Shown here: positions 15,304-53,185 of the stretch, one piece after another | Layout: each line of letters begins with the position of its first letter | Position numbering within the stretch: the stretch's first letter is position 1 | NCBI RefSeq assembly: GCF_019879105.1 | Contig: NZ_CP082247.1 | Location: 372,001 to 436,000, forward strand | Direction: 5' to 3' | From: Natrinema sp. SYSU A 869 | GTDB lineage: Archaea > Halobacteriota > Halobacteria > Halobacteriales > Natrialbaceae | Length of the DNA: 64,000 bases | Program-made: the position numbers and the translations under genes | The notes under the pieces: generated by a model | Told to the model about the DNA's origin: nothing | The model's database searches: none | The model's input: only the letters and a program-made list of their open reading frames with translations

Positions 15304-15540
15304 GCTGATCGAGCCTCGGAGACCGGTCGGTAGTTGTGACTCTGTCCGCCTCTGCTATCGAAGGGGTGTATGCAGTTTCGCATCGTTCAGCGACGATTTG
15401 CGACCGTCTATCAATACAGTCACACGATTTGACTATAAATGTATGAGCCTCCAAAGCGCATAGAGATAGCTACACAGCAGAGAATTCGGAGGATTTGAAG
15501 AATCCACGTTCTTCCTTCGGACGAGATTTGAGGTAGCCAC

Positions 15541-15562
15541 ACCCCACGTTTCCGCTCTATAG
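15541..15562 (+). repeat. Origin recognition box-like repeat 1
   Basis: ACCCCACGTTTCCGCTCTAT plus AG. One of seven copies of this motif around the orc1/cdc6 gene; this one and the next lie downstream of the gene. The GTTTCC/GGAAAC core next to a run of C/G resembles haloarchaeal origin recognition boxes. Confidence 0.7.
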
Positions 15563-15598
15563 CGAGAGCCAGATAGTAACAGAGAGACGAACAGGGAC

Positions 15599-15620
15599 AC
15601 CCCACGTTTCCGCTCTATAG
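15599..15620 (+). repeat. Origin recognition box-like repeat 2
   Basis: Same 22-bp motif and same orientation as at 15541, 58 bp further on. The pair could form a second, smaller binding cluster or an autoregulatory site on the 3' side of orc1. Confidence 0.7.
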
Positions 15621-15659
15621 TGTGAAACTGAGAGTGAGGGGAAGCTTGATGGTAGAGAA

Positions 15660-16865
15660 TCAGTCATTCGGTTCGACTAACTTGCAGGCTTCAAGGGTTT
15701 TCTCAGGATCATCTACGAGTGTTATTATGGTTCGGCTGCCCTTGGCCTTCCCCGCAGCTTTGGTATTCCGAGTTATGATTTCAAGGAACTCTGCCTCTTC
15801 TAAGAGATCCCGGACTCGGCGTTCCGAGAGTGGGCTTGCTTCTTCGATGGAACATTTCCTCTGGTAGAGATTGTAGGCCTCTGTCGTGGTGATCGGGTTC
15901 TTCTCAGTGTCACGATCCGCTGCTAGTGCTGCAACAGATTGAATCACGAGTGTTGAGTGATGGGGCAGAGTAGAGATAACCTCAAGAATTTCGTCGCGTT
16001 CGGCGCGTTCGAAGGCCTCATCGATGAACTCATCTTTGACGGTTTCAGATTGGTTTTCGTTAGCTATCTCGCCAGCATATCTGAAAATATCCATTGCTTT
16101 TCTTGCGTCACCGTATTCTCGAGCGGAGAGAGCTGCAACTCTCGCAGTGATCCCCTCCTCTAACACACCATCATAGAACGCATCTTTGCGCGCTTCTAAG
16201 ATTTTCTTCAGTTCATTCGCTGTATACGGCGGGAAAACGTGTCGGCGTTCACCAAGACTTGAAACCGTTCTCTCGTTGAGTTTGTCAGTGAACCGTGGTT
16301 TGTTGCTGATGCCGATCACACCGAGCGACGAATCAGTTAGCTTGTTGGCCTCACCCGCTCGAGAGAGTGTCATTAGAAGATCATCATAGGCGTGGTGTTT
16401 GTCGATCTCGTCGAGGATGATCAGCGAGATATCGTGGATTGCATCCATTGCTTTCCATGCCCGTTGGTAGAACTGACCAGTAGATAATCCAGTATCTGGA
16501 ATATGGACGTCGGAGAGGTCGGGATCGTTCAACTGCTTTGCAATACGAATGACTGCGTCGGTTTCGCTCGAACTCTGAGAACAATCGACGTATGCGATTC
16601 CAACTGAGTACCCGTTCTCCCCAGCTTTTTCCTTGAGTTTTTGTGTTATGAACTTCACAGAGAGGGATTTCCCAGTTCCCGGTTTCCCATAAACGAGGCA
16701 ATTAGATGGCTTTGACCCGTTCGTTGCTGGATACAAGGACTGAGCGAGAGATTCAAGTTCTTCATCCCGACCAATGATGCGATCTTCATCGACAACATAG
16801 TCGATCTGCACCATATCCTTGTCTTTAAAGACCGACGAGATCCCCCCGAAGAAGTCCTTTGGCAT
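15660..16865 (-). CDS. orc1: Orc1/Cdc6-family replication initiator
   Basis: A 401-residue AAA+ ATPase. Walker A is VYGKPGTGKSLSVKF (about residues 58-72), Walker B is SLIILDEIDKH, sensor 1 is in LGVIGISNKPRF, and sensor 2 is in REYGDARKAMDIFRYAGEIA. A winged-helix domain follows (STLVIQSVAALAADRD to LLEEAEFLEIITRN). Such proteins bind origin recognition boxes and start replication of their own replicon. Origin-like repeats lie on both sides (15541-15620 and 16911-17453), so this is very likely a self-contained replication module of a plasmid-type replicon. The length is normal for plasmid-type Orc proteins. The ATG at 16865 is followed upstream by the repeat at 16911, which could allow autoregulation. 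Confidence 0.95.
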   Translation of the reverse strand: MPKDFFGGISSVFKDKDMVQIDYVVDEDRIIGRDEELESLAQSLYPATNGSKPSNCLVYGKPGTGKSLSVKFITQKLKEKAGENGYSVGIAYVDCSQSSSETDAVIRIAKQLNDPDLSDVHIPDTGLSTGQFYQRAWKAMDAIHDISLIILDEIDKHHAYDDLLMTLSRAGEANKLTDSSLGVIGISNKPRFTDKLNERTVSSLGERRHVFPPYTANELKKILEARKDAFYDGVLEEGITARVAALSAREYGDARKAMDIFRYAGEIANENQSETVKDEFIDEAFERAERDEILEVISTLPHHSTLVIQSVAALAADRDTEKNPITTTEAYNLYQRKCSIEEASPLSERRVRDLLEEAEFLEIITRNTKAAGKAKGSRTIITLVDDPEKTLEACKLVEPND

Positions 16866-16910
16866 ACCTTGTTCATTGGGTGTGGGTGAGATAAAGGTTC
16901 GGAAGGGAGG

Positions 16911-16928
16911 CCACCTTTCCGCTCTATA
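16911..16928 (+). repeat. Origin box-like repeat 3 (degenerate)
   Basis: CCACCTTTCCGCTCTATA, a weaker copy that lies 46 bp upstream of the orc1 start and so could overlap its promoter. Confidence 0.55.
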
Positions 16929-16964
16929 GAATTAAAAACCATACTTTGAGGGGATATAGAGGGG

Positions 16965-16987
16965 TTATAGAGCGGAAACGAGGGGTG
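16965..16987 (-). repeat. Origin box-like repeat 4
   Basis: Contains TATAGAGCGGAAACGAGGGG, the reverse orientation of the box. A weaker TGTTTCCACTCTA sequence follows at about 17001. Confidence 0.65.
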
Positions 16988-17066
16988 ATTTGCTGGACCG
17001 TGTTTCCACTCTAACGAGAGTGCGAATTGGTCGATCGGATCAGACGGATACTCTAGAGACACACCC

Positions 17067-17088
17067 ACCCCACGTTTCCGCTCTATAG
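17067..17088 (+). repeat. Origin box-like repeat 5
   Basis: A perfect copy of the 22-bp motif (core GTTTCCGCTCTATAG), at the left border of the AT-rich stretch. Confidence 0.7.
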
Positions 17089-17363
17089 AGGTAGTATACT
17101 CCCTCAAACACTCTTTGAGATCGGTTTTACCTTCAAACAGGTTCTACTGCGGATTGCTATGGCGGAATTCTCCACACCGTATTATATCTATCTATAAAGG
17201 CAAATTCTACTACTAGGGAACTATACCCAAAGTGCTACGAGAGGCTGTGTATCACAATATCAGAGATATGTGAGACCCCTGTAAGTTCCTTATAGGTAAG
17301 TTCTTTATTAGCAGTCCAATGACTAGAATCGTCAAATGCGGATCTCTAAGGTTTCTCGATGGC

Positions 17364-17385
17364 CTATAGAGCGGAAACATGGGGT
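17364..17385 (-). repeat. Origin box-like repeat 6
   Basis: CTATAGAGCGGAAACATGGG, one mismatch from the consensus, in inverted orientation at the right border of the AT-rich stretch. Confidence 0.7.
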
Positions 17386-17430
17386 GTGTCTGTTCGATCT
17401 ATTCACGAAACTACACGCTCGAAGGTGGAT

Positions 17431-17453
17431 CTATAGAGCGGAAACGTGGGGTG
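17431..17453 (-). repeat. Origin box-like repeat 7
   Basis: A perfect inverted copy (CTATAGAGCGGAAACGTGGG), 67 bp after repeat 6. Confidence 0.7.
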
Positions 17454-17513
17454 TCCCCGTTGTCGGTTTCAGATGGCTTGAGGTGTCTTGGCCGGAGCCG
17501 GCCTCCCCGGACA

Positions 17514-19456: not shown

Positions 19457-20380
19457 CTAGGTATCGATCTCGAGTAAGTCGTCTCGCCGACTGCGGAGCG
19501 TGTTTGGCGATGTTCCTGCGATATCGGCGATCCGCTGCTGGGAAAGACACAAACCGACTCGCTGGGCCGCGAGATAGAGACAGCCCGCTGCGACGCCACT
19601 CGGCCGGTAGCCGATCGTCAATCCGCGTTCGCGTGCCTCCTGTGCGAGCTCGAGCGCTCGTCGACGAACCTGGGCTGGTACCTCAAGTTCTGTCGCAAGC
19701 CTCGGAATGCGATCTGCTGCTGAAATCGGCTGTGTCGGTAACTCGAGTTCGACGTTCATCGCGTTGTAGGCGATGGTGAGTCTCTCCTGGTCATAGCGTG
19801 CACTGGCTGCGACTTCTGCCCGTGATCGTCCGAGTCCGTTACACCGAGAGGTTGCGTAGACGCTGGCTGCGGCCACCGCCTCAAGCGAGCGACCCCGACA
19901 GAGTTGTTCGGATTGGGCACGTCGGAAGAGCGCACATGCTTGGTCACGGATACTGTCTGCCAGACCTAGACTAGCTACAATCCGCCGCACTTCACTGAGT
20001 CCATAGGCGAGGTTCCGGTCTGCTTTCGATTGCCACTGTGCACGGGACTGTTCGCGACGCAGTCGATTCAGTTGTCGTCGCTTTGTGCTCGAGAGGGTAT
20101 TTCCGTTTCCATCCGTCTTGTATCCAATCTCGGTGGAGAGGCCTTGATCGTGGCGTGTCGGTGTCAGTGGTGCACCGGTCCGCTTCTGGGTTTCTCCGTC
20201 GTCATTTCGGCCCCAGTCTGGCCCTCGGTCTAATTGGTTGTTCTCGAGGATGAGTCCACAATCCTCGCAGATCATTTGGCGGTCGGTCTGTCGAATATTG
20301 CCATCACAGTCCGGACAGTCGGTTGCAGTCGTCTGGACGTCTTCGTCGAACGCAGTCGTGTAGATATCTCTCGTTGCCAT
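19457..20380 (-). CDS. tfb: Transcription initiation factor TFB
   Basis: About 307 residues. An N-terminal zinc ribbon (CPDCDGNIRQTD, then MICEDCG; C-x2-C-x15-C-x2-C) is followed by the B-reader region and two cyclin-like repeats (first: LAYGLSEVRRIVASLGL to SVYATSRCNGLGRSRAEVAA; second: IPRLATELEVPAQVRRRALE to CLYLAAQRVGLCLSQQRIAD). TFB recruits RNA polymerase to the TBP-TATA complex. Haloarchaea carry several TFBs that sort promoters, and plasmid copies are usual. The start at 20380 (MATRDIYTT) is preferred to an ATG seven codons upstream. The upstream region has TATA-like TTTTTAAA and the leader hairpin. Confidence 0.92.
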   Translation of the reverse strand: MATRDIYTTAFDEDVQTTATDCPDCDGNIRQTDRQMICEDCGLILENNQLDRGPDWGRNDDGETQKRTGAPLTPTRHDQGLSTEIGYKTDGNGNTLSSTKRRQLNRLRREQSRAQWQSKADRNLAYGLSEVRRIVASLGLADSIRDQACALFRRAQSEQLCRGRSLEAVAAASVYATSRCNGLGRSRAEVAASARYDQERLTIAYNAMNVELELPTQPISAADRIPRLATELEVPAQVRRRALELAQEARERGLTIGYRPSGVAAGCLYLAAQRVGLCLSQQRIADIAGTSPNTLRSRRDDLLEIDT

Positions 20381-20408
20381 TGCTGACTCCGAAGGGGACA
20401 ACAGAACA

Positions 20409-20563: not shown

Positions 20564-21193
20564 CTACGTAAACTCCTCGCTAAGATGTGCATCGAGTTCA
20601 TCATCGAGCGTGGCTAGTTCTCCTGAGATGCCGTCATCGACATCGTCAGCTTCCACAGTCACGTTGACTCCCTCATCGAGAGACAGTTGCTCATCGATCA
20701 CCGCTCGTTCCTCTTCCCAGTCGGAAACGCTCTTGATCGCATATTTTTGGCGTCGCCGCCACTCCCCGTCTTGTTTTTGCCAGAGGTAGACCATTCCCTC
20801 GTTAGTCTCGTACGATCCTTTCTCGACGATATTGACGATGGCTTTCCACCAGTTGTCGTTCTGGAAGAGGGTTTCGCCGACGCCAACAGTGTAGTAGTCA
20901 CTCACCGGAAACGCCATCGTTACGTCCGACGGCGGGTCGCTCCGAATATACTGGTCGATTATCTCGCGGTCTGTCGCCCAAGCTTCCGCGGTTTTCACGA
21001 CATACTTGTTCTTCCGCGTCCAGCTATCGTCGTCCCGATGCCAGAGATATACTGCAGTCTCGTTGGCGTCCGAATTAGTGTCAAACTGATAGGTGACGAC
21101 TGCTTTCCACCATTCGTCAGTCCGATACAGACTGGTTGCCTCGAGCACCTGAAGCGAGTCGTGGACGGGAACGTCTGTGTTCGTATTACTCAT
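20564..21193 (-). CDS. Two-repeat WWK protein of the DndD-like operon
   Basis: A 209-residue protein made of two related units of about 65 residues. Unit 1 has LYRTDEWWKAVVTYQF, VYLWHRDDDSWTRKNKYVVK and EAWATDREIIDQYI. Unit 2 has LFQNDNWWKAIVNIV, VYLWQKQDGEWRRRQKYAIK and SDWEEERAVIDEQL. The repeated WWKA-x-V and YLW-x6-W-R-K-KY patterns suggest a beta-sheet domain with exposed aromatics, possibly binding nucleic acid or a partner. The last 40 residues are acidic. It follows the gene at 21260 on the same strand after 66 nt, as last gene of the operon. No family recognised. Confidence 0.65.
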   Translation of the reverse strand: MSNTNTDVPVHDSLQVLEATSLYRTDEWWKAVVTYQFDTNSDANETAVYLWHRDDDSWTRKNKYVVKTAEAWATDREIIDQYIRSDPPSDVTMAFPVSDYYTVGVGETLFQNDNWWKAIVNIVEKGSYETNEGMVYLWQKQDGEWRRRQKYAIKSVSDWEEERAVIDEQLSLDEGVNVTVEADDVDDGISGELATLDDELDAHLSEEFT

Positions 21194-21259
21194 ATGGCAC
21201 CGTCAGGACGAGGGCGATGAGCCGTCATGTGAGTGTGGTCGTTCCATCCTGCCCATTAC

Positions 21260-21742
21260 TTATCGTCCCATCATTTCGTCGTCGAAGCTCTCGACGATCG
21301 CGCCCAGTTCTCCCTCGATAACGTCATCATCTTCTTCTTCTTTCCGAGACTCGATGTAGTTCACAATGGCGTCGGTCGGGTCACCCGCGTTCTGACCGAA
21401 TTTCTCCTCGGCGAATTCGAGCCCACCGGCAGCGTACTGTGCGATAACGCGTTTATGCTCCTCTTTGTCGACGAGAGCCTCCGGTTTACCGGTGTCTTGA
21501 AACGCGAGACAGGCCGCGACCGTGTGAAAGAGGTCCCGCGAGTGGACGTTCTGGAGGCCTGCCTCGCCATCCGTCTCAGCATCCGAATCGCCCTTGAAGT
21601 CCTCTCGTCTCACTTCGCCTTCCCGGTAGCCGACAACGGCAAGGAACAGCAGTACCTCGTAGTAGTAGTCGAAGACTTCGTATTCGTCGACAAGCTGGTT
21701 GTACAGTTCACCCTGTTCGTACTCGATGAGTAGTTTTCCCAT
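21260..21742 (-). CDS. Dnd system-associated-like protein
   Basis: About 160 residues. The pattern LYNQLVDEYEVFDYYYEVLL FLAVVGYREG at the front and HKRVIAQYAAGGLEF near the end resembles small proteins annotated as Dnd system-associated protein 4 (Fxxxx..LxxAAxxGY.., EEYANGG), which accompany phosphorothioation loci. The ATG at 21742 lies 2 nt after the DndD-like stop, implying translational coupling. The C-terminus is strongly acidic. It probably acts with the SMC-like ATPase. The assignment is from memory of the pattern and needs a profile search. Confidence 0.55.
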   Translation of the reverse strand: MGKLLIEYEQGELYNQLVDEYEVFDYYYEVLLFLAVVGYREGEVRREDFKGDSDAETDGEAGLQNVHSRDLFHTVAACLAFQDTGKPEALVDKEEHKRVIAQYAAGGLEFAEEKFGQNAGDPTDAIVNYIESRKEEEDDDVIEGELGAIVESFDDEMMGR

Positions 21743-21744
21743 GA

Positions 21745-23775
21745 TCAATTACCTGCCGTTGCGGTCTGTTCGGCCTTGATTTGCGTCTGCGGGGAACGAT
21801 CTTCTCCATCACCCTCGTCGAAGTCAAGCCAGTACTGTTTCCCGGCAATGTCTCTCATCTCCTCTTCGACAGGTCCCTCCCACTGAGAGTCGGTTGCGAA
21901 GACCATAACCTGGGTCGCCAGTTCTGGAAGGATTCGGCTTACTTCGCGTCGGTGGTCCTTGTCGAGCGCACCGAACGGCGAGTCCATAACGAGCGGATAG
22001 ATGCCGCCGGTGAAATACTCCGTATTGGAATCATCCTCGTAGCGCCGCCTAGCGATTTTGACGAGGCTCCCGACGAATGCGAGGCTGGCGATCTGCCGCT
22101 CGCCGGTTGACTTATCGACTTCGACGCGATCGTTGCGGACGGACTGCCAAATTTTGAGTTCGAAGTCGTCCGTAATTTCCGCCTCGAGATCCTTACTCGC
22201 TATCGCACCGAAGGTCTGATTCACCTCCTGATTCGACCAACTCCGAACTCGGTCCTTGAGCGTCTCGAATGTGCTGGTAAGCTCTGTCTGGACCTGTTCG
22301 GCCGCTTGCTGGCGTCGCTGTGCGAGACGTGTCTCTTCGCGCTCGTCGCGCTGGTCGGAGATATCGTCTTCCAACTGCTCGATTTCCTCCTCGCGGGTCG
22401 AAATTTTTTCATCAATTCCGCCCTTGTCAGCGATCAGCTGATCTTTCTCTTCTTCTTTTCGCTCGCGCTCGGTCTCAAGATCACTGATCGACTCCCCATC
22501 GGGAGTGGTCCCCTCAAGGTCCTGGAGTTCCGTGCTGATCTCGTCGATTAACTCGACTAATTCGTCGATTTCCTCGTGTTTTCCCTGTCGTCGTTCGATT
22601 AGCGCATCGACCTCGTCGAAGAAGGCAGCGTGTCCGTCAGAAAACTGTCGGAGATGACCGACGATACGCATAGCACCCTGTTCGACTCCGTCCGATGCGA
22701 CCTCGCCGCGGAGCGAGGACACTTGACTGTATGGCGCCGTCTCCGGCTCCAGATCGCGACCACAGATACACTGTTCAGCCTCGAGCAGCGAGTCGAGGAA
22801 GTCGTCGCTCAGTTCCGACGGGATGACCCCATCTTCTCTGAGTTGGTCAATCTCGTCGGCCGTGTCCCGTATCAACGGCATCGCGAGCGGGATGAATCCG
22901 TGTTCCGTAACGGTATCCTTTATCTGACTGTTGATCTCCTCGACATCTGCTTCGAGTTTTTCCTTCTGCTCGCGGTACTCGCTCCGTTTCTCCTGAAGTT
23001 GAGCGCTCTCGTCGAGCCGCGAGAGCTTCTGCTTGATGTCGGAGATTTCTGTTCGAATGCGATCGATCGCACGATCTTTGTCCTCTTTCTTCCGTTCGAG
23101 CTGTTCAATGTCCGATTTAATTGATTGCTTCTCGTCGATCAGCTCTCGGAGTTCCTCACTAGCACTCTCTTGGACCTGCGACTCGAACCGACCGGCGACC
23201 GTCTCTAGGTGTCGCGTCGCCCGTTCAAGGATGGTCAGTCCCATAATGTTCTGAATCGCCTCCTGAATTCGGTCTTGATTATCGATGCCGGCCAACTCGT
23301 CGATGTCCTCTCCGTCGAAGAAGAACAGCTCGCTTAGCCGTTCCGGAATAATCTGACTGAGGACGTTCCCCGGATTATTCAGTTTCGTCGGTCCGCTGCC
23401 GTCATCGTATCCGACAGCGAGGGTCACGTCTTCTAGCGTCCCATCGAAATCCGTCGACGACTGCTTCTCGTAGACGGCCGTCCGAGTCGCCGTGTATTCT
23501 GCCCCATCATGGGTGAACTCTAACGTGACCGAGACGGTCACCTCGTCGCCTGCATTTGCGCCGGCCATCGCACCCTCGCTCGCTAACCGGTCGGGCCGCG
23601 TATCGAAGTCGACGTCCTCGTACAGGAGCCAGGTGAACGCGTTCAGCAGAGTGGTCTTACCGGATCCGTTCGATCCGTGGATCACAGTCACATTGTTCGT
23701 CTCGCCGCGCGCGAATTCAATCACTTCGTCGCGGAATTGTCTGAAGTTCTGGAGTGAGAGTTGGCGAAGTTTCAT
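21745..23775 (-). CDS. DndD-like SMC/Rad50-type ATPase
   Basis: A 676-residue ABC-type ATPase with Walker A HGSNGSGKTT (from residue 33), a long coiled coil (about 200-520) interrupted by an apex with a single CIC knuckle (EQCICGRDL) like a reduced zinc hook, then the signature region (STGERQIASLAFVG) and Walker B (YPLVMDSPFGALD). The order and the phrase SELFFFDGEDIDELA are typical of DndD, the ATPase of DNA phosphorothioation systems, which is thought to alter DNA structure for the DndC sulfur-transfer step. No DndC or DndA-like gene is seen nearby. The start codon shares one base with the stop of the tiny gene before it. Confidence 0.85.
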   Translation of the reverse strand: MKLRQLSLQNFRQFRDEVIEFARGETNNVTVIHGSNGSGKTTLLNAFTWLLYEDVDFDTRPDRLASEGAMAGANAGDEVTVSVTLEFTHDGAEYTATRTAVYEKQSSTDFDGTLEDVTLAVGYDDGSGPTKLNNPGNVLSQIIPERLSELFFFDGEDIDELAGIDNQDRIQEAIQNIMGLTILERATRHLETVAGRFESQVQESASEELRELIDEKQSIKSDIEQLERKKEDKDRAIDRIRTEISDIKQKLSRLDESAQLQEKRSEYREQKEKLEADVEEINSQIKDTVTEHGFIPLAMPLIRDTADEIDQLREDGVIPSELSDDFLDSLLEAEQCICGRDLEPETAPYSQVSSLRGEVASDGVEQGAMRIVGHLRQFSDGHAAFFDEVDALIERRQGKHEEIDELVELIDEISTELQDLEGTTPDGESISDLETERERKEEEKDQLIADKGGIDEKISTREEEIEQLEDDISDQRDEREETRLAQRRQQAAEQVQTELTSTFETLKDRVRSWSNQEVNQTFGAIASKDLEAEITDDFELKIWQSVRNDRVEVDKSTGERQIASLAFVGSLVKIARRRYEDDSNTEYFTGGIYPLVMDSPFGALDKDHRREVSRILPELATQVMVFATDSQWEGPVEEEMRDIAGKQYWLDFDEGDGEDRSPQTQIKAEQTATAGN

Positions 23776-23930
23776 CAGTTAATTTCTTCTTCGATAATCG
23801 TCTCGATGTCGTCGTTGATGCCCATTGGATTGTCGAGGTTGAGTTTCTCCTTCTCGGCAGCCAGTACCCGTTCACGGATTCGCTTTCGCGTTCCGTCTGG
23901 GATAGATATTTCGTCTCCGCTGTCAGTCAT
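23775..23930 (-). CDS. Tiny protein coupled to the DndD-like gene
   Basis: A 51-residue protein (MTDSGDEISIPDGTRKRIRE, then RVLAAEKEKLNLDNPMGIND, ending IETIIEEEIN). A short beta-like start followed by helices gives a faint ribbon-helix-helix look, so it may bind DNA or replace the small DndE partner. Its TGA stop and the DndD-like ATG share one base, so the two are translated together. The function is inferred only from position. Confidence 0.6.
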   Translation of the reverse strand: MTDSGDEISIPDGTRKRIRERVLAAEKEKLNLDNPMGINDDIETIIEEEIN

Positions 23931-24024
23931 CACTCCTACCAGAGTCTGACATCACTTATATCTTATAACGAACGAACGCCTTGCTGTCGGGTGATGAAAT
24001 AGTCTCCGTGAATGACGACTGACT

Positions 24025-25434
24025 CTATGCCCCAAGGAGGTCGTACTGGCGTTTGAGCCGCTGTAGTGATCCGTCGGTTGTCAGAACCCCGTCGATGTCG
24101 GCATCGGGGTGATTGCGAGCGGCGTCCGCGAACGTCGAGACGCGCTCGAGTTCGCTCTCGAGCAATCGACGCTCTGCCTCGTATTCGTTACCCGAGAGAA
24201 ACGCTGGCCGGCCGTTGACACTCGGTACGGTGATAAAATCGTGAATGACAGCGAACTCCTTGCCCGGATGTGTGCGGAGAATCCGGCCACGGCGCTGGAC
24301 GTACTGACGCGGATTACTCGTACTCGCTAAAATGTACGCGCTTCTCGTTGCTGGCACGTCGACACCTTCGTCGAGACAACGAATCGAGGTGAGGACGTCG
24401 ATTTCACCGGCATCAAATCGCTCGAGTAGCCGCTCCCGTTCGGGCTGTGATTCTCGTGCTGTGAATCGCTCGACGGTGAGACCAGGCATTGTCCGAAGTC
24501 GGTCGGTTGTCGCGTCGACGTGTCGTTCGCCGGTACCCGATTCGACACCGGTTGAGCCATCGCTACAGTAGACGAGTGTGTGGCTCACCCCCGACTCCTG
24601 CTCGAGTAGGTCGACGAGGATATCGAGTTTTCGCCGCGCCGTCCCGATCAATCGCGCACGTTTAAACAATGTTTGTTGGAGCGCTGGATTGTCTTCGAGC
24701 GCAACGTCGTCGGAGCTGGACGCCGATAGGCGGCCGACCTTCGCCGTCAGTCGTCGGTATTCTTCAATCTCCTCTGCAGTGAGTTCGACGATGTGCGGAA
24801 CGTAGTAGTATTCACATAACGCGGCGGCGTCGATTGCCTGCGAAAGTCCATACTCGAACACCGTCTCGCCGAAATACTGTCTGAGGGCGAGTGTCCCCGA
24901 TTCATCGTACCACCGTTCTGGTGTTGCCGACAGCCCTAGTCGAAAGTTGAACGCTTGAGAGAGTCCCTTGCGCATTTGTTCGGCGCCAAGGTGGTGGACT
25001 TCGTCGCCGATGATCATCATCGGTCCAGTAGCTCGCTGAAGCGTTCGTTGTGCCGGATCCATCGAGAGCGTTCGGTGCGTGGTAACGACGACACACAGCG
25101 ACCGGGAGCCGTGATTGAACTCGAGGAGCTCGCGCTCGAGACGGGGCTGCCAGTCTGCACGCGACTGGTAGGCCAGTACTGGACTGACGCCGAATGCCTC
25201 CAGCTCTTCTGTCCACTGATCGACGAGGTGCTGGTATGGGACCGCGATGACCAGAAAGAGTCCCTTATCCAGCGAATTAACGACCTGGGTGGCCGAGAGA
25301 AGCGCGGTAATCGTTTTTCCGGTCCCGGTTGCCATGTTGAGGATTCCCTGGCCGTCAGCATCGACCCACCGCTGGATGGCTGTCCGCTGATACGCTCGCG
25401 GTTCGACCCAGTCCGGTGGCTCGAGTGCTGTCAT
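24025..25434 (-). CDS. SF2 helicase, Dnd-type restriction enzyme candidate
   Basis: A 469-residue DEAD/DEAH-type helicase with a Q-like front (EPRAYQRTAIQRWVD), Walker A NMATGTGKTITALLS, motif Ia VIAVPYQHLVDQW, motif II IIGDEVHHLG (DEVH), motif III LSATP, and motif VI YVQRRGRILRTHPGK. It resembles proteins annotated as DNA phosphorothioation system restriction enzyme, with similar length and the phrase APYxHLVDQW. It is the first gene of a minus-strand operon; the tiny gene and the DndD-like gene follow after 94 nt. No separate nuclease domain is visible, so cleavage would need another subunit or a cryptic site. Confidence 0.75.
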   Translation of the reverse strand: MTALEPPDWVEPRAYQRTAIQRWVDADGQGILNMATGTGKTITALLSATQVVNSLDKGLFLVIAVPYQHLVDQWTEELEAFGVSPVLAYQSRADWQPRLERELLEFNHGSRSLCVVVTTHRTLSMDPAQRTLQRATGPMMIIGDEVHHLGAEQMRKGLSQAFNFRLGLSATPERWYDESGTLALRQYFGETVFEYGLSQAIDAAALCEYYYVPHIVELTAEEIEEYRRLTAKVGRLSASSSDDVALEDNPALQQTLFKRARLIGTARRKLDILVDLLEQESGVSHTLVYCSDGSTGVESGTGERHVDATTDRLRTMPGLTVERFTARESQPERERLLERFDAGEIDVLTSIRCLDEGVDVPATRSAYILASTSNPRQYVQRRGRILRTHPGKEFAVIHDFITVPSVNGRPAFLSGNEYEAERRLLESELERVSTFADAARNHPDADIDGVLTTDGSLQRLKRQYDLLGA

Positions 25435-25850
25435 CGTTGCTCTCGAGTACCTGTGGAATTCTTTTGGTTCATGCTATCCCGTGTTTCAACTCCGCTGCTG
25501 TCTCTTCCTTCGACCTGTCTGACGGTACGGTATCAGCCACGTGGACCCGTTCATTGATACTAACGAGATGTTTCGCCCGGTAATACTTACCCTTCTCGTC
25601 GGAAGGTCACGCACGACGAAATTACGAGAAGATGCGATAAACGGAATCGTCATCAGGGCGCTTCCGATTGGAGATTGTTTAAATGGTCTATCAGACTAAG
25701 GAAAAATTTTCTCATATAACAAGACGGGGCTGCTGTCGCTAAACCCCTATCTCACTGTGCATATATCAATTGAACACACAATATGCAACGATCAAAATTT
25801 AATTGTATCGGTGGATAACCAGGTATACACTATTAGTTGGTCAACTCAAA
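25435..25850. other. Divergent intergenic region
   Basis: About 415 bp between the helicase (minus) and the LAGLIDADG-like gene (plus). The right half is very AT-rich (for example AAGGAAAAATTTTCTCATAT) and should hold the promoter of the plus-strand gene. No gene, repeat or RNA motif is recognised. Confidence 0.5.
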
Positions 25851-26804
25851 ATGACAGAGAAAATTTTAAAGGAAATTGATGGCATCATCAATGAGGAACT
25901 TCCTGAAGACCCGTCCGAAGTTACGGAGGAACTCAACGCTGGACAAAAACAGGAACTATTACAAATTTTACAGCATTCGGCTGATGAGCTTGGCAAATCA
26001 CCGACTATTAGCGAATATAACTCACTGGGTCTGAAAACCTCCGCCTCTACAATCCGTCGTGCGTTTGGGACATGGAATGAAGCAAAGAGAGAAGCTGGTC
26101 TCGAAACGTGGCAACGAGGAACTGTGGTTTCCATTGACGAGAGCTATTTCCAGCAAATTGATTCTGTAGAAAAATCTTACTGGCTTGGCGCTCTTTTTGC
26201 CCGATCTTCTTTGCAGAAAAATGGCCAGACAGACAATAAAGCTCTCAATGTGGGACGAGCAGAGTCAAAAGATTACTTCGTGAGAGAGTTCGCTACTGCT
26301 ATAGAGAGTGAATATCAGATCAATAAGCATTCGAAAGAGGACGCACCGAATCAACAGGACACAGTGCAACTCCACATCTCTAATCCCAATTTTGTGGAAA
26401 ATCTCATTTCCGCTGGTTACCCTCTCTCGGACGACGATATTGCTGGTTTTCCCTCTTTCAAGAAATCGGAATACCGTTCTGCGTTCGTCCGTGGCTATCT
26501 CGAGTCAGCAGGATACTTCTCGACACAGGGATGGAATATATCTATAGACAGCATAGAACGAGCCGAAACATTACAAGAATGGTTCAAGGAAGCCGGGGCT
26601 AAACGTCCAACTCTTTCGAAAAAGGGCACTGATGCAGCGAAAGTTAGAGTTGCAAATGTGTTCGATATTAGGTCAATTTTCGATATGTATTGGCCTGACC
26701 AGATGGAGACGGAGCCAAGTTGGAAACCCTACCCGGAAAAAGTGATGAGCCATTTGAAGACCGAGTATCCGTACCCAGAGAACGTCCCGTACCTCCCCGA
26801 GTAG
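25851..26804 (+). CDS. Homing-endonuclease-like protein (LAGLIDADG-type)
   Basis: About 317 residues. The N-terminal part has a repeat of the kind found beside homing endonucleases (ADELGKSPTISEYNSLG, STIRRAFGTWNEAKREAGLE). Two weak LAGLIDADG-like helices follow (YWLGALFARSSLQ and FVRGYLESAGYFS), where the catalytic acids are not well kept: the first has Arg-Ser where Asp-Gly is usual, the second Ser-Ala. It is therefore probably a DNA-binding protein rather than an active nuclease, perhaps a regulator. The base composition is more AT-rich than its neighbours, a sign of transfer. The start at 25851 is preferred to an upstream in-frame codon. Confidence 0.6.
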   Translation: MTEKILKEIDGIINEELPEDPSEVTEELNAGQKQELLQILQHSADELGKSPTISEYNSLGLKTSASTIRRAFGTWNEAKREAGLETWQRGTVVSIDESYFQQIDSVEKSYWLGALFARSSLQKNGQTDNKALNVGRAESKDYFVREFATAIESEYQINKHSKEDAPNQQDTVQLHISNPNFVENLISAGYPLSDDDIAGFPSFKKSEYRSAFVRGYLESAGYFSTQGWNISIDSIERAETLQEWFKEAGAKRPTLSKKGTDAAKVRVANVFDIRSIFDMYWPDQMETEPSWKPYPEKVMSHLKTEYPYPENVPYLPE

Positions 26805-26935
26805 CGATATTCCAATACCAGCGGTGAGTAAGGACCACTACAAGCACCTATCTATACTACGCTAGTCTGCTGATATCGACGTGGAAACCAAGTAACCCCG
26901 AAAAACTATGTAGATTGTCCGGTAATTCGTGTCAA

Positions 26936-28626: not shown

Positions 28627-28835
28627 ATCGACTTACTGGTTGAGTGCGATGATTGCATTGACGCAGTTCGATTACAGTGGCGGTGCGTCACTCGCACGCG
28701 CTATAATGTTGTCACTCTCCTGGGGGTTGTCACTGTCTCAATCAGTGGCACAAACCTATATGTGGTATCACTGGCAACAACAGCGCAACAACCTGTGTGG
28801 GAAATCATCACGCCGCACGTTCATTTTTAGAGGCT

Positions 28836-30923
28836 ATGGCGAACGATCACACTAGTCCATTCGAGAAACAGATGGACAGCGGAGCAGCGTTCAAGTCGGA
28901 TTTGCTCAGTGGGCTTGACAAATCGGAGTGGCCGGGCCGTATTGACTACGTTGCAGGCCGTCTCACCACTGGCGAGTACGCCATTGGACTGGGATCGTCG
29001 AGCACGAAATATCTGACCGATGGTTACGATCTAGAACAGGCGGCCCGGGACTACTACCTCAGGGGAATTGCAGCTCTGACTGGCGATAGGGCACGACAGT
29101 CGGCGTTGCCCGACGATTTCCGGTTAGGGAACCTCCTCGTCGAGTTTGTCGGTCTTCGAGACGGTCTCAAAGACGTTGATCGCCGAGATGTGCCACCTGG
29201 CGAAATCCTTTCACGGATCATTACACGTACCATCCAGCGACAGGCCACCGAACAGAACGCAGAACTCGCTCAGCAGTTGCGCGCAGATACGGAGACACCC
29301 CGTGAACTGGTAGCCGAACTTACAACAGTTCCAGAACTCGCGCGGATGGTCGAATGGGCACTCCCTAAACCAGAGGATCCAGCGACACTCACGACGAAAC
29401 TCGCGTCGCTGGATCTAACGACCGAACTCTGGGATCACCAACTCGAGAGTCTTGCCCTCTGGTTGCACCATGATATGAACGCGTACGTCGACATGGCGAC
29501 GGCAACAGGGAAGACGGTGCTCGGTCTGGCCGCTGTTGCGCACGCCGTTGACTCGGGCTCACTCCATCCAGCCGACCAGAAGCGGCTGGACGACATTTTC
29601 AATGGTGACCTTCCCGAACCCTACCGTGATCGTCCGAACGATGTACTCATCGTCACCACCGACGACCTGCTCAGCGTGCAGTGGGCGCGACTGTTTCAGG
29701 ACCACTGTCACACGCCGCCGGCGTTTACGACTGTTGATGAAACTGGAATCCAGCTCCCGTGGGGGCAGATCGATATTCGGTCGGCGAGCAGTCTGGCCGA
29801 CGTTGACCCGAGCGATTACCGATTAGCAATCTTCGACGAGGTGCACAACTACTCGGGTCGATCCGGCTGGGGCGACCACCTGCTCAAGTTCGTGGAGTCG
29901 CCGTGCCCGATTCTCGCACTGACCGGGAGCGTCACCGACCAGCTGGAGTCACTGGTCTCACAATCCGACCGACCGTTCCCGCTCGTCTACCGGTACACGC
30001 ATGAACTCGCACTCGCCGACGGTGTTATTCCCGACTTCGAGTGGACGCTTTCGTTTACCGATATCACCGACTCCGACGCGCTCACCCAGTTCCGAGAGAC
30101 GGCGGAGCGTTTCGATCAAGTGGCAGACTACGACGCAGGTAGCTACCGGCTCGAACCGGACGCACTCGCCGATATCGCGCCCGAACTCACGGAAGACGAG
30201 GTGTCGACGATGGCCGGCGAATACGTCTCTGGATCAGCACTTGCCAAGGGACTGCGAGAATCCAACGACGATGGCACCGCACCGACGGACTCGCTCGAGT
30301 TGTTGGCGGGCGGCATAAGCAACCGGACCATCCACCGGCTTAACCTCAGGGCCGACCTCAAACCCGTTATCGAGACTGCCGAAGAAGCACTTGCAGAGGA
30401 ACGCCCAGTACTCGTACTCACGCGGTCGTACGGCGAAGCCAAGGAAATCTGGGAAGCACTGTACGATCGGGACGATGACCGCTACGTCCAGAGACTCAAA
30501 GCTGGCGGGTCTGCGACAGACCATGATGACACTATTCGTGCATTTGACGAGGTCGACACAGACGAGAAGGTTCTCATTGGTCCTGGCAAGCGCATCGGAC
30601 AGGGCAACGACATCCAGTCCGTTGAAGTTGGAATCAACATTGCACGTCCCGGTAGCGGCGTCAACGCGTCGCTTGTCCAGCGTCTGGGGCGGCTCCTCCG
30701 AGACGCTGGTGGGAAAGACACCGTTGAGTTCTACCACGTGGTTGGCGTTCCGCCGGCCGATGCAACTATCGAGCCCGATGGCGAGTCGTTCGTCCGGACC
30801 GTCGCGGAGTTCTTTGGACAGGTACTCGAGCCCGACACTGACGGTATTCTCAAACCGCCATCGATTGGTATCGAGGACGGTATCGAGTCGGATGTCGTCG
30901 CGCTCGAACAGCAGGGGGAGTGA
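28836..30923 (+). CDS. SF2 helicase of the Dpd-type locus
   Basis: About 695 residues. A helical N-terminal domain (about 1-190) includes RLTTGEYAIGLGSSSTKYLT. The ATPase then has Walker A MATATGKTVLGLAA (from residue 220), DEVH box AIFDEVHNYSG (about residue 331), motif III in LALTGSV, and motif VI NASLVQRLGRLLRDAGGKD (about 610). It is the first gene of the plus-strand locus, and its stop overlaps the GTG of the next gene by 4 nt. It may play the part of the bacterial DpdE or DpdF helicases, but the order and length differ, so I give no symbol. The start at ATG 28836 is preferred to an upstream in-frame codon. Confidence 0.8.
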   Translation: MANDHTSPFEKQMDSGAAFKSDLLSGLDKSEWPGRIDYVAGRLTTGEYAIGLGSSSTKYLTDGYDLEQAARDYYLRGIAALTGDRARQSALPDDFRLGNLLVEFVGLRDGLKDVDRRDVPPGEILSRIITRTIQRQATEQNAELAQQLRADTETPRELVAELTTVPELARMVEWALPKPEDPATLTTKLASLDLTTELWDHQLESLALWLHHDMNAYVDMATATGKTVLGLAAVAHAVDSGSLHPADQKRLDDIFNGDLPEPYRDRPNDVLIVTTDDLLSVQWARLFQDHCHTPPAFTTVDETGIQLPWGQIDIRSASSLADVDPSDYRLAIFDEVHNYSGRSGWGDHLLKFVESPCPILALTGSVTDQLESLVSQSDRPFPLVYRYTHELALADGVIPDFEWTLSFTDITDSDALTQFRETAERFDQVADYDAGSYRLEPDALADIAPELTEDEVSTMAGEYVSGSALAKGLRESNDDGTAPTDSLELLAGGISNRTIHRLNLRADLKPVIETAEEALAEERPVLVLTRSYGEAKEIWEALYDRDDDRYVQRLKAGGSATDHDDTIRAFDEVDTDEKVLIGPGKRIGQGNDIQSVEVGINIARPGSGVNASLVQRLGRLLRDAGGKDTVEFYHVVGVPPADATIEPDGESFVRTVAEFFGQVLEPDTDGILKPPSIGIEDGIESDVVALEQQGE

Positions 30924-32056
30924 GTATCTATGGTGATAACCAGTCCACCGTCATTGAATCAGCTTACGCGGCCGCGATCGACGAGCAAAGTGAGGGTGAC
31001 AGTCCTGCTGTTGCCACGGACTGGTTCTCCGCAGCCTTCGGCGACGAGGCACAGCCCTCTGTCCGGAACGAAGCGAATACCGGGCGAGTTGGTCGGACCA
31101 GCGACGATGGAACCGATGCACCCGTTTCTACGCAGGATCCGAATTCCGAAGTCGACGGCTTCACAAGTGGCGATGGAAACTGTTCGGATGAAGCTGGGGG
31201 GTCAACTGACGTGGGCAAAACCGTCGAGGATGGAGATGCTGTCGACGAAAGCGGTGCGGATGGCCAAATCGAAGCGAAAGCGGATGTCGATGACGGTGTA
31301 TCGCCGATCGCCGAGTACTATGACGCGTTCCGCAGCCTCGGCATTATCCACAAGGCTCTACTCGAGTCTGCTGAATCGGATATCCCGGATTCGGATCCTC
31401 TGAGCCGCTGGATCGTGGATGTTCGGTCGATCATTACCGAAACGGGCTACGGCGATCAAGAGATCGGCTACGGGAAGCAGCAAGTAGATCGAAGCGAGAT
31501 TTCGATTCATAACTATCGGGAGAAGTACGGGACGGGCGACCGCGTGACTGACTTCAATTTCGTCTCCGTCCACCACACTTCTAGTGCGGTTACGGTGCTT
31601 CTCAATGACTCGCTTTCGGAGCTCTCGTCGTGGGTCATACCCGTCGCACCCGAAAGCGAGGTTCCGCTGCCGGTACTCGTCGAATCCGAGGCGGAACTCG
31701 AACGAGCTCGGGCACTTCTCGATGAATTCCCGACTGAACCACCCGTCCTCGTGGACGAAGCATCTGATACGAACGGCGATGAGGTATCGGGTGAGTTGGC
31801 GACAGCGGATCAGGTCGGAACGGCGATAGAAGATGACTCCGGGTCGACCTCTCCACAATCAGAATCAGAAGAGTCCTCCTCAACGCCGGTTGAAGATGTC
31901 CGTGGTGTGTCTGATTCAGTCGCGGAGGCATTGCGCAACGCAGGCTATGAACGTCTGGTTGATCTTCAGACTGCTACGGATGAGGAGCTCGAAGCGGTAG
32001 AGGACGTCTCAGCGCAACGCGTCCAGCTTATCAGAGCAACGGTCGGGAGCCGATAG
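30920..32056 (+). CDS. Acidic protein with C-terminal helix-hairpin-helix
   Basis: A 378-residue protein. Residues 40-125 are low-complexity acidic. A folded middle domain (about 125-265) includes IAEYYDAFRSLGIIHKALLE. After a second acidic linker, a C-terminal HhH domain (VRGVSDSVAEALRNAGYERL, then DLQTATDEELEAVEDVS) could bind DNA without sequence preference. The GTG start lies inside the stop of the helicase (GTGA overlap), so the two are translationally coupled and probably form a complex. No counterpart is known to me among the bacterial Dpd proteins. Confidence 0.7.
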   Translation: MSIYGDNQSTVIESAYAAAIDEQSEGDSPAVATDWFSAAFGDEAQPSVRNEANTGRVGRTSDDGTDAPVSTQDPNSEVDGFTSGDGNCSDEAGGSTDVGKTVEDGDAVDESGADGQIEAKADVDDGVSPIAEYYDAFRSLGIIHKALLESAESDIPDSDPLSRWIVDVRSIITETGYGDQEIGYGKQQVDRSEISIHNYREKYGTGDRVTDFNFVSVHHTSSAVTVLLNDSLSELSSWVIPVAPESEVPLPVLVESEAELERARALLDEFPTEPPVLVDEASDTNGDEVSGELATADQVGTAIEDDSGSTSPQSESEESSSTPVEDVRGVSDSVAEALRNAGYERLVDLQTATDEELEAVEDVSAQRVQLIRATVGSR

Positions 32057-32160: not shown

Positions 32161-34164
32161 ATGGCAGATTTTCGGGTAACGTCGGTCGGTGACGACGGGT
32201 ACGGCCGTTTGGGCGAACTCGACATCCCACATGGGCCGGTCGAGACGCCAGTGCTCTTCCCGGTAATCAATCTCATTGGTGGAACCACGACTGAATCGGG
32301 CGGTGTCTGGAGACGGATGCGAGACAATCTCATCTCGCGTGATCATCTTCAGGGGATCATGTTTCAGGCGATGAGTTTCACGGACTACGGGGTCTCTCCG
32401 GGGAATCTAAACGAATTCTGGCGAGCCGAGACGTTCCACGAACGATTCGACAACCTCGATGCCCCCGTATTCATCGACTCCGGCGGATTCAAACTGATGA
32501 ATTCTAACACCTTCGGTAAGGCTCCAACCGAAGGCGGCGCCGAGAACGACTGGGGACTGTATACGAATCCTGCGAGCATCCTCGGACTACAACTGGATTT
32601 CGGCAGCGACATTATCGCCACGCTCGATTATCCGATTCCGCCGAAGCTCAACGAAGAGGAGAAATTCGAGCGGATGGAACGCAGTATTGAAAGCGCCGTG
32701 GACTGCCTACGGATCGTCGAAGATCCGTCGCTGCTAACGGATGGCCAGAACGACAACAAGCGAGCCAGACAGCACCTCGAGCGGCGGAAGGCCGAAGGGG
32801 ACGAGCCCGGCGTCTTCATCGCACTCCACGGCCACGACTACGAGACGATAAACTGGTACGTCGGGAACTTCCTTGAGCAGGTTGACGACGCCGGCCTCGA
32901 GCACGCGTTCGAGGGGTTCGCGATCGGGTCACTCGTGCCCTTACGGAGCAGTATCGACGTTCTGGTCGATATCGTTCAGGGGGCGAAAGATGCCATCCCA
33001 ACATCGCGCGCAGACGAGGTGGGGGTTCACGTCTTCGGTGTCGGGGGAAAACAGGTATCGCTGCTCGCGCTTCTCGGCGTCGACTCCTTCGACTGTTCCA
33101 GTCACATGCAGACTGCCCAGTATCGAAAGTACCTTCTCCCCGACAAGTGGGAAACCATCGAACTCGATGATTTAGAGTCTCATCTCGGCGATGACGGCGA
33201 GTTCCCCTGCGAAATGAGCAACTGTACGCTCTGTGGTCCCGACAGTGAGGTCGAGAGCTACGAGGAGATGATGCAAATCCTCAACAGTGATATGTCCTAT
33301 GACGAGCGAGAGCGCCGGAAGGACAACGATCAATACATCAAAAGTGACTACTACGGCCATCTCGCGCGACACAATTTCGAAGTCTACAACGAGGAGCTCT
33401 CGCGAGTCCGCGACCAGATCAGGCAGGGAACACTTCTGGATTACGTCATCGAGTTCGCCAGACAGGCCGACGATATCAAGAAGGGGCTCAAGCAGGCCCA
33501 GCTTCGTAACCAGGGACTCCAACGCGATATCGAGGAGCGTGGAGCGTACGACTTGATTGCAGGGATCGATATCACGAGCGATCAGTCGAAACTTTCCAAG
33601 TTCGGTGCTGGCGTCGACGAGACGACAGAGAACCGTACGATTTCGCTACAGCACACTCCCAACGACTTCGATGTGCTTGCGCGAGACTACGAACCTCCAG
33701 CTGACAGAAACGTTCTCCTCGTCGTTCCATGTAGTCAACAGAAACCGTACTCGGAGTCACGAACGCATTCTGTGTTAATGGACAAAATTGGTGACCGCCG
33801 CGACGACATCCACAAGGTCACTCTCTCGGGAATGTACGGCCCGGTCCCAGAGGAATGTGAATCTGAACAGCCAGTTCTCGAGTACGAGTACGTTCTTGCC
33901 AAGGAGGATCACGCACAAATCGAACTCGTGACCGATCGTCTCGTCGCATATCTCGAGCGGCACAGCGATCAGTTCGACCATGTTGTCGGCTACGTGACGA
34001 GCAAGACCTACCGGCAAGTCATCGAGGACGCCTTCGATCAGTACGGCCGTGGGACCGTCCTTCCCCGCGATCCGAAGGCAATGCAACTCACTGAATTCTT
34101 CCGCTCAAGTAACACGCAAGAACTTGTCGAGTATCTAGATCGGGAGGCGGCAGATTTCGTATAG
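32161..34164 (+). CDS. dpdA: DpdA-like DNA transglycosylase fused to an ArcS-type domain
   Basis: A 667-residue protein. Residues 1-350 form a tRNA-guanine-transglycosylase barrel: FIDSGGFKL carries the catalytic Asp106, GVDSFDCSSHM carries the second Asp (311), and C350-x4-C355-x2-C358 with a later His (about 404) can bind the structural zinc. DpdA enzymes swap guanine for preQ0 in DNA. The C-terminal 150 residues contain PCSQQKPYSESRTH (523-536), an exact match to the ArcS signature PCx3KPYx2Sx2H. ArcS turns preQ0 in tRNA into archaeosine, with the Lys of KPY as the reactive residue. So this one protein may insert preQ0 and convert it. It sits between the helicase/HhH pair and the restriction genes. 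No PUA (tRNA-binding) domain is seen, which argues against a tRNA enzyme. Confidence 0.85.
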   Translation: MADFRVTSVGDDGYGRLGELDIPHGPVETPVLFPVINLIGGTTTESGGVWRRMRDNLISRDHLQGIMFQAMSFTDYGVSPGNLNEFWRAETFHERFDNLDAPVFIDSGGFKLMNSNTFGKAPTEGGAENDWGLYTNPASILGLQLDFGSDIIATLDYPIPPKLNEEEKFERMERSIESAVDCLRIVEDPSLLTDGQNDNKRARQHLERRKAEGDEPGVFIALHGHDYETINWYVGNFLEQVDDAGLEHAFEGFAIGSLVPLRSSIDVLVDIVQGAKDAIPTSRADEVGVHVFGVGGKQVSLLALLGVDSFDCSSHMQTAQYRKYLLPDKWETIELDDLESHLGDDGEFPCEMSNCTLCGPDSEVESYEEMMQILNSDMSYDERERRKDNDQYIKSDYYGHLARHNFEVYNEELSRVRDQIRQGTLLDYVIEFARQADDIKKGLKQAQLRNQGLQRDIEERGAYDLIAGIDITSDQSKLSKFGAGVDETTENRTISLQHTPNDFDVLARDYEPPADRNVLLVVPCSQQKPYSESRTHSVLMDKIGDRRDDIHKVTLSGMYGPVPEECESEQPVLEYEYVLAKEDHAQIELVTDRLVAYLERHSDQFDHVVGYVTSKTYRQVIEDAFDQYGRGTVLPRDPKAMQLTEFFRSSNTQELVEYLDREAADFV

Positions 34165-40504: not shown

Positions 40505-40506
40505 TC

Positions 40507-52798: not shown

Positions 52799-53185
52799 CG
52801 AAGAGATTTCTCTCTGGCTGGTGTCTACTCGCAATTACAGCCAGTCGAAGTTGATTGTGATTAATGGGTGACCAGATATCGAATTGGACTGGGATGGCTC
52901 TGGCGTTCGATTAACAATTTAAGTACCCCCGGCTGTCTCCACGGGTACCGAACGAGATTTGGCCGGACGAACGGACAAACTACCGGAACGTATAATATCC
53001 CAACGTGACATAGTACAATTACTTGCGCCCCGGCGTTCGCCCGCCGGAACGGATTGTTGGCACCGTCGATTCAACCAAACCGTGCTCGCGCGGCCGCTCT
53101 CCGGCTCTCAGCCGGCAGCGGTGAGTCTATAGTTTCGCCTACCAGCGACGGCCAGCGGCTGCGTAGCGTTCACTTTTCCCAACAC
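52799..53185. other. Intergenic region upstream of the second tfb
   Basis: About 390 bp without a convincing gene. It contains AT-rich promoter-like GAACGTATAATATCCCAACG near 52995 and GC-rich stems (CGGCTCTCAGCCG). The tfb transcript probably starts here. Confidence 0.4.

Follow-up and report, generated by a model that had tools for sequence, protein, structure and literature searches.

A run of five minus-strand genes (20564–25434) in a 64,000-nucleotide stretch of the haloarchaeon Natrinema sp. SYSU A 869 (contig NZ_CP082247.1, positions 372,001–436,000; hereafter the window) is, as judged from its sequence, a PbeABCD operon (a CxC ABC-ATPase/DndE-like system) whose PbeA has no nuclease domain and which has an added fifth gene. 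The gene identities, the intact motifs, the absence of DndC and of the PbeA nuclease domain, and the recurrent linkage of the operon to a neighboring transglycosylase cluster were computed here. Surrounding genes are predicted to install an unusual guanine in DNA, so the operon may use this base as a self mark. We consider the chances evenly balanced that it is the PbeABCD of a haloarchaeal subclade in which the HKD domain of PbeA was lost and which was recruited to a 7-deazaguanine (Dpd-like) DNA-marking cluster.

Operon Structure

The host genome (G000 in our numbering of genomes) comprises 5.67 Mb in three contigs, is 99.13% complete and carries the window on an 891-kb secondary replicon. 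Neighboring genes of the run overlap or are separated by short gaps; their products, as assigned from sequence or predicted structure, are:

24025–25434, minus strand: short-form PbeA, 469 residues; SF2 (ResIII-type) helicase with motifs I, II, III and VI intact, N-terminal HKD/PLD nuclease domain absent
23775–23930, minus strand: PbeB-like small protein, 51 residues; positional homologues in relatives
21745–23775, minus strand: assigned as PbeC, CxC ABC-ATPase, 676 residues
21260–21748, minus strand: assigned as PbeD, DndE-like, 162 residues
20564–21193, minus strand: two-repeat WWK protein, 209 residues; predicted PUR-alpha-like single-stranded nucleic-acid binder, accessory

The stop of the PbeB-like gene overlaps the start of the ATPase gene, the open reading frame (ORF) of PbeD overlaps the ATPase stop by 4 nt, and the WWK gene begins 66 nt downstream of the PbeD gene. 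Compared to the closest relative found (G138), the genes for PbeA, PbeC, PbeD and WWK differ at 48–53% of third codon positions and at 11–21% of second positions, a pattern of purifying selection. As the frames are conserved in this comparison, the ORFs are genes and not chance ORFs. Together, the coordinates, the overlaps or short gaps and the conserved frames bear out the initial annotation of this DNA, made from the sequence alone, in reading the five genes as one operon. A megablast search of the operon against plasmids gave no match, and a scan of genome_contigs with PbeC yielded three loci only.

Directly upstream of pbeA (25803–26900) lies an ORF with HNH repeats (homing-endonuclease-associated repeat), followed by fragments of a 571-residue protein; the same pair adjoins pbeC in G350. 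The HNH-repeat ORF (25803–26804) was considered as a member of the operon and dropped, as it is divergent and also turns up elsewhere with its neighbor (u571), for example in G350, a genome in which PbeA was not found.

The ATPase Is Assigned to PbeC, a Sister of DndD

The ATPase scored 767 bits against the PbeC model of PADLOC and 188 bits against DndD, and its 184 bits against the DndD model TIGR03185 are below the cut-off of that model (245.85). Walker A (GSNGSGKT), signature (STGERQ) and Walker B (LVMDSPF) motifs were identified, as well as a zinc-hook CIC at residue 336; such a CxC zinc hook is present in 19/19 PbeC proteins inspected and in 0/2 DndD proteins. The sub-cut-off score and the CxC hook rule out DndD, the family to which the initial annotation had likened the ATPase: the profiles place it outside that family and, on sequence grounds, it is PbeC, a CxC ABC-ATPase and sister of DndD. 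The Dnd-related content that had been noted for the operon is nevertheless real, in the form of this DndD-sister match and a match to dnd_assoc_4.

The latter match (TIGR04062; 41 bits, cut-off 74) was found for the 162-residue protein. Its predicted structure (mean pLDDT 85.4) aligned with archaeal DndE (7x4e) with a Z of 7.6 over 110 residues (root-mean-square deviation 3.6), the next chain reaching a Z of 2.4 (VIA). Foldseek alone gave no significant match with this model and, because of this and a Z below 8, we regard the likeness to DndE as a moderate match. By its modeled structure, the protein is PbeD, DndE-like. The 51-residue PbeB-like protein had no family match in the profile scans; its homologues occupy the same place, between A and C, in relatives.

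PbeA Lacks the Nuclease Domain

The helicase scored 538 bits against the PADLOC model of PbeA, covering positions 247–668 of the 672 in the model, which is the helicase half, and 546 bits against TIGR04095 (cut-off 600). The HKD/PLD nuclease that is usually but not universally fused to PbeA is absent from the protein, and upstream of its start the frame is closed by stops. Relatives were collected from a class sample of 391 genomes, in which the PbeC clade is formed by the 20 genomes scoring above 650 bits in the PbeC search. PbeA was found in 19 of these and is short (approximately 470–550 residues) in 18; the sole long form, of 717 residues (G338), adjoins DndC. By contrast, PbeA has 673–737 residues in each of the 18 loci taken from the neighboring PbeC clade. 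A strain-specific truncation was rejected: shared by 18/19 clade genomes in which PbeA was found, short PbeA is normal for this clade and a stable form rather than the decay of one strain.

In a PbeC tree a branch of 2.38 changes per column (100/100 support) separates the short-PbeA from the long-PbeA group. G338, with its long PbeA, is placed among the short-PbeA rows (94/94); if this fork holds, the HKD domain was therefore lost more than once or regained. The tree has open forks, and it omits G133, the duplicates of G014 and several near-identical rows.

Sulfur Genes Are Missing From the Genome

The absence of DndC from the window, pointed out previously, was confirmed and extends further: TIGR03183 (DndC) had no matches at E ≤ 1e-3 across the whole genome. 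TIGR03235 (DndA) retrieved, genome-wide, only generic cysteine desulfurases far below the cut-off (best 165 of 480 bits). The main chromosome (contig C3) encodes two proteins of the PAPS-reductase family (PAPS_reduct), neither of which matches the DndC profile. A hidden DndC elsewhere in the genome was rejected on the basis of the TIGR03183 result and these non-matching reductases, and the suggestion that the sulfur genes reside elsewhere in the genome finds no support in either search.

A genome with Pbe and without DndC is not exceptional. PbeC (E ≤ 1e-30) is present in 62/391 genomes, and because just 18 of the 62 have DndC, solitary Pbe is common. Within the PbeC clade, DndC occurs in two of the 20 genomes, G338 and, on another contig, G234. 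The operon is probably a defense module that does not use phosphorothioate. The initial annotation had offered such a separate system as its second possibility and was probably right in this respect, but it did not recognize the system as the known PbeABCD, of which solitary copies have already been published. The gene neighborhood suggests a third option beyond the two that had been offered, in which 7-deazaguanine takes the place of sulfur as the mark.

Pbe Is Linked to Transglycosylases in a Haloarchaeal Subclade

The cluster neighboring the operon encodes two transglycosylases, TGT667 and TGT415, which are present in 39/391 (E ≤ 1e-40) and 44/391 (E ≤ 1e-30) genomes, respectively. We defined a subclade of nine genomes whose PbeC is at least 59% identical to that of the window, a line drawn after seeing the data. 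TGT667 occurs in 8/9 subclade genomes versus 31/382 others (Fisher one-sided p = 4e-8, a value that is too small because subclade genomes share ancestry). At the genus level, the count is 7/7 genera (p = 9e-5, with one genus counted through a different genome), and for the clade it is 8/20 genomes (p = 2e-4); given the relatedness of the genomes and the line drawn afterwards, we take these values as guides. TGT667 or TGT415 lies 4–38 kb from pbeC in each of the eight subclade genomes with TGT667, and eight of the nine subclade haloarchaea carry a pair of PUA-less (DpdA-like) transglycosylase genes. The ninth genome (G234) has a diverged transglycosylase at 7 kb and diverged cluster helicases, with DndC elsewhere. 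At the nuclease-bearing PbeA loci TGT667 or TGT415 was found in 0/18, within the 15–20 kb read. Two other PbeC genomes with TGT667, G254 and G165, have the two genes on different contigs or 1.6 Mb apart.

The cluster gene set recurs at 60–80% identity around pbe in G138 and G327, and partly in G178, G002, G268, G133, and G153. QueD, QueE, FolE, and QueC are encoded between pbeA and the helicase in G138. The order PbeCD-GmrSD-QueDEC-PbeA-DUF6884-TGT415-HATP518-TGT667 is found within approximately 17 kb in G153 and G133, and in the former PbeB was identified as well, together with a transporter of the Vut_1 family, to which queuosine-precursor transporters belong. A stretch of approximately 16 kb in G002 holds HATP518-TGT415-DUF6884, a helicase-HhH fusion, PbeABCD-WWK and the DpdJ-like/HKD pair, and TGT667 is located some 186 kb from that locus. 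The five-gene helicase unit of the window (34803–44940) was not found near Pbe in G002, G133, or G153.

The WWK protein provides a second tie. Its AlphaFold model, built from seven sequences (mean pLDDT 75.6), has the strand/helix order EEEEH-EEEEH, that is, two beta4-alpha repeats. Foldseek matched it to repeats I–II of PUR-alpha (E 1.3e-3), and VIA gave a Z of 10.2 for human PURA (8cht) and 10.1 for fly Pur-alpha with DNA (5fgp); the five PUR chains range from 9.7 to 10.2 and the next unrelated chain is at 6.3. A sequence search of the PDB gave no match. The model predicts WWK to be a PUR-alpha-like single-stranded nucleic-acid binder. WWK matches occur in 13/391 genomes, with both repeats in nine (G000, G138, G327, G178, G268, G002, G278, G194, and G098), and the transglycosylase cluster is present in all the stretches read for these. 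Six of the nine have WWK beside Pbe and three (G278, G194, G098) have no Pbe. The matches of the remaining four genomes are short or weak: that of G235 lies beside Pbe, those of G342, G279, and G133 (contig C11) are without cluster genes apart from repeat-protein matches. As WWK is found in clusters with and without Pbe, it is a link between operon and cluster that does not depend on pbeC.

The Transglycosylase Cluster of the Window

TGT667, TGT415 and the TgtA of the genome itself align over the catalytic domain, and 17/17 transglycosylase sequences share, without variation, the aspartates of DSG (DSGG) and FD as well as the zinc-site CxC and His. In structures of tRNA-guanine transglycosylases (TGT) these columns are catalytic. 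TGT415 (413–415 residues) stops without the extra C-terminal region of the housekeeping enzyme, and contig C3 carries distinct housekeeping copies of TgtA and ArcS. The cluster genes in the window are:

28797–30923, plus strand: Hel708, second PbeA-like helicase; fused to the HhH region of the next gene in G002, G268, and G178
30920–32056, plus strand: HhH-domain protein, Hel708 partner
32161–34164, plus strand: TGT667, transglycosylase-like, with DUF5591, an ArcS-like domain, at its C-terminus; retains the catalytic Asp and zinc-site columns
34803–39590, plus strand: large DEAD-box helicase with MZB domain, 1595 residues; conserved in the cluster
39497–40504, plus strand: conserved cluster protein, no family match
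40507–41340, plus strand: conserved cluster protein, no family match
41337–44246, plus strand: STAND-type NTPase-like protein (nSTAND3 24.6 bits, cut-off 27.2)
44044–44940, plus strand: conserved cluster protein, 298 residues
45121–49212, plus strand: DpdJ-like helicase (PADLOC DpdJ 176 bits; NCBIfam DpdJ 170 bits, cut-off 800)
49175–49642, plus strand: stand-alone HKD/PLD nuclease-like protein, 155 residues, DpdK/DrmC-like; motif HAKVVVCDEFA
50142–50825, minus strand: PIN-domain-like cluster protein (19.6 bits, below cut-off)
50829–51950, minus strand: conserved cluster protein, no family match

Just past the window (G000:C1:439027–441824) lie TGT415 and the HATPase protein, preceded by a DUF6884 relative. 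The idea that the stand-alone HKD protein specifically makes up for the missing nuclease of PbeA was considered and not kept, as this protein stands beside Pbe in only 5/9 subclade loci (G000, G138, G327, G002, and G178); it is also present in transglycosylase clusters without Pbe.

Several further features were observed in and around such clusters. Of the 15 TGT667 loci read that have no Pbe, 10 contain the five-gene unit (34803–44940), which is a candidate for a defense module of its own. Two genes for TFB transcription factors (19457–20401 and 53054–54121) flank the cluster, with relatives beside it in other genomes too; they are perhaps dedicated regulators. An Orc1/Cdc6 gene (15660–16865) is contained in a region (15539–17461) with several ORB-like repeats in both orientations, which is the likely replication origin of the 891-kb secondary replicon. 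A second, diverged cluster, on the Natronosalvus rutilus plasmid NZ_CP100356.1 (L167/L185), contains a pair of TGT genes and encodes a BREX-type ATP-binding protein; its WWK gene lies inside the helicase operon, on the other strand. The Haladaptatus sp. YSMS36 plasmid NZ_CP119784.1 (L184) bears a cluster with three TGT genes and an annotated PLD protein.

A Possible Self Mark and Alternative Explanations

A tentative proposal, whose chances we put somewhat short of even, is that of a hybrid Pbe–Dpd immune system of haloarchaea, in which Pbe, a restriction-like module from phosphorothioate-based defense, would have come to read 7-deazaguanine made by an archaeal two-transglycosylase machine and a PUR-alpha-like single-strand binder would replace the lost nuclease step. 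In this proposal, as in the evenly balanced reading of recruitment to a marking cluster, we infer the action of the transglycosylases on DNA, the resulting base, its reading by Pbe and the antiviral function. In the working that we propose for the recruited operon, TGT667 and TGT415 would act together with the HATPase and DUF6884 proteins and replace guanines of the host DNA by preQ0, or by a compound derived from it, made by FolE, QueD, QueE, and QueC. PbeC–PbeD would check DNA for this base. Where it is missing, PbeA would translocate on the DNA and open it, and the PUR-like protein would bind the resulting single strand. Replication of the foreign DNA would then stall, or a neighboring nuclease (the HKD protein at 49175–49642; GmrSD in other genomes) would cut. 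A helicase-only PbeA fits both a block of replication and cutting by a separate nuclease.

Several observations weigh against recruitment to a marking cluster. Linkage alone is weak, because defense genes cluster on islands and plasmids; our random-placement estimate takes no account of such clustering. Over all PbeC genomes TGT667 is found in 10/62 versus 29/329 others, which is not significant (p = 0.07). Conversely, the PbeC subclade is absent from 31/39 TGT667 genomes, so Pbe would be an optional add-on to the marking cluster, and 15 TGT667 loci read contain no Pbe. In 11/20 clade genomes there is neither TGT667 nor a TGT match near Pbe, one of them (G338) having DndC. With D12 as the sole methyltransferase query, a D12 adenine methyltransferase was found within approximately 15 kb in 5/12 TGT667-less clade genomes (G148, G079, G337, G125, and G330), all five among these 11, and in 0/8 TGT667-bearing ones in the stretches read. 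In the genome of the window, queC is present on the main chromosome only, and the DUF6884 gene (G000:C1 ~438551–439027; L108 2652–3128) looks frame-broken near its start, unlike its relatives. The NCBIfam DpdA model gives the TGT415 of L045 28 of 200 bits, far below cut-off. Neither DpdB nor DpdC was named among the family matches of the scanned proteins, which cover part of the cluster; DpdB is reported to be dispensable in some clusters (excerpts of PMC12839542). Finally, TGT-fold proteins can act on other substrates, as the weak match to Cap10 described below illustrates.

The operon could instead be an autonomous neighbor, a PbeABCD that works with a different mark or with none and only shares a defense island with the transglycosylases; we consider this unlikely, yet a serious contender. 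It would account for the TGT667 genomes without this Pbe (31/39), for the origin with Orc1/Cdc6 on the 891-kb replicon near the operon, and for the D12 methyltransferases near sister PbeC loci (5/12 versus 0/8). It sits poorly with the interleaved gene order in G133 and G153 and the compact 16-kb locus in G002, with the lack of such linkage at nuclease-bearing Pbe loci, and with a WWK gene that bridges Pbe and the cluster.

Two further explanations appear improbable. One, put forward by Xiong et al. as one of two options for solitary pbe, would make the operon a relic, inactive after losing DndCDEA and the nuclease domain. The published activity of Pbe did require phosphorothioation (excerpts of PMC6459918), and DndC is absent from the genome; against this, the ATPase and helicase motifs are all intact, the codons show purifying selection, and PbeA is short throughout nearly all of its clade. 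The other is that the transglycosylases modify tRNA, rRNA or protein (Cap9/Cap10-like), with Pbe responding to that rather than to marks in DNA. The transglycosylase profile does match Cap10 (9ntn) weakly (35 bits, E 8.5e-8), but its best solved relative, with a far stronger match, is the base-exchanging archaeosine tRNA-guanine transglycosylase 1iq8 (E 8.9e-62), and the linkage to DpdJ- and DpdK-like proteins argues against such a substrate as well. Phosphorothioation through an unusual PAPS-reductase-type protein in place of DndC is very improbable: of the two PAPS_reduct proteins on the main chromosome that could be such a donor, both fail the DndC profile, neither is near Pbe and one adjoins an FtsZ-like ORF and looks like a tRNA-thiolation enzyme, and DndD was not found beside Pbe in the loci read.

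Comparison With Known Systems

The literature already describes PbeABCD, copies of it that are solitary or paired with methylases, and the recruitment of a TGT in BREX-Related Capture (BRC) systems; the context of solitary Pbe beside transglycosylase and preQ0 genes is new. In the open-licence literature we found no paper joining Pbe with 7-deazaguanine, which is not proof of absence, and the terms TGT, deaza, queuine, QueC, archaeosine and Dpd are all absent from the text of PMC10853773. A host DpdA was floated as an explanation of preQ1 in the halovirus HVTV-1 (a passage of PMC6884629), so a haloarchaeal host DpdA has already been mentioned in print.

The excerpts of Xiong et al. (2019; PMC6459918) report that 320/553 PbeAC pairs are without dndCD within 10 kb, 155 of the 320 being near base-modifying genes, and propose that Pbe may pair with other modifications. 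Over half of the known PbeAC pairs are thus without phosphorothioation genes, and their self mark is a question that these authors posed. The locus described here offers a testable answer for one Pbe subclade, a 7-deazaguanine base. If true, the PbeC–PbeD reader would work regardless of whether the mark is a backbone sulfur, a methyl group or deazaguanine, and there would be an archaeal host system in which 7-deazaguanine in the host's own DNA is tied to restriction. A natural nuclease-less PbeA also bears on the dispute over the action of Pbe, cleavage of DNA or a mere block of replication: the same excerpts describe a block of viral replication without visible cleavage, and those of PMC10853773 argue for cutting by the HKD domain.

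As far as the excerpts of the cited papers describe them, four systems resemble the locus. The DndCDEA-PbeABCD system of Haloterrigena (Natrinema) jeotgali A29 (PMC6459918) shares the A-B-C-D order, the helicase, the small protein, the ABC-ATPase, a last protein of approximately 150 residues and a haloarchaeal host; the window operon differs in having no DndCDEA, no N-terminal PLD domain in PbeA, an additional PUR-like gene and a transglycosylase cluster around it. The systems centered on a CxC ABC-ATPase and DndE (Nucleic Acids Res. 2024, PMC10853773) have the CxC zinc hook, the paired DndE-like protein, the SF2 helicase and the small protein in common with it, and can lack phosphorothioation genes and be accompanied by cytosine methylases, but in the vast majority they contain HKD-helicase fusions, unlike the PbeA of the window. 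The bacterial dpdA-K 7-deazaguanine system, compared from its descriptions in PMC12839542 and PMC12707154, likewise combines a transglycosylase and preQ0 genes with a DpdJ-like helicase and a DpdK-like PLD protein, whereas the haloarchaeal cluster has sub-cut-off DpdA matches, two transglycosylases, the HATPase and DUF6884 proteins, a STAND-like NTPase and the Pbe module. The BRC systems (PMC12839542), finally, are also defense systems proposed to have recruited a TGT as self mark; they are built on PglZ, HerA/FtsK and BrxC-like proteins, and the system of the window on PbeC–DndE.

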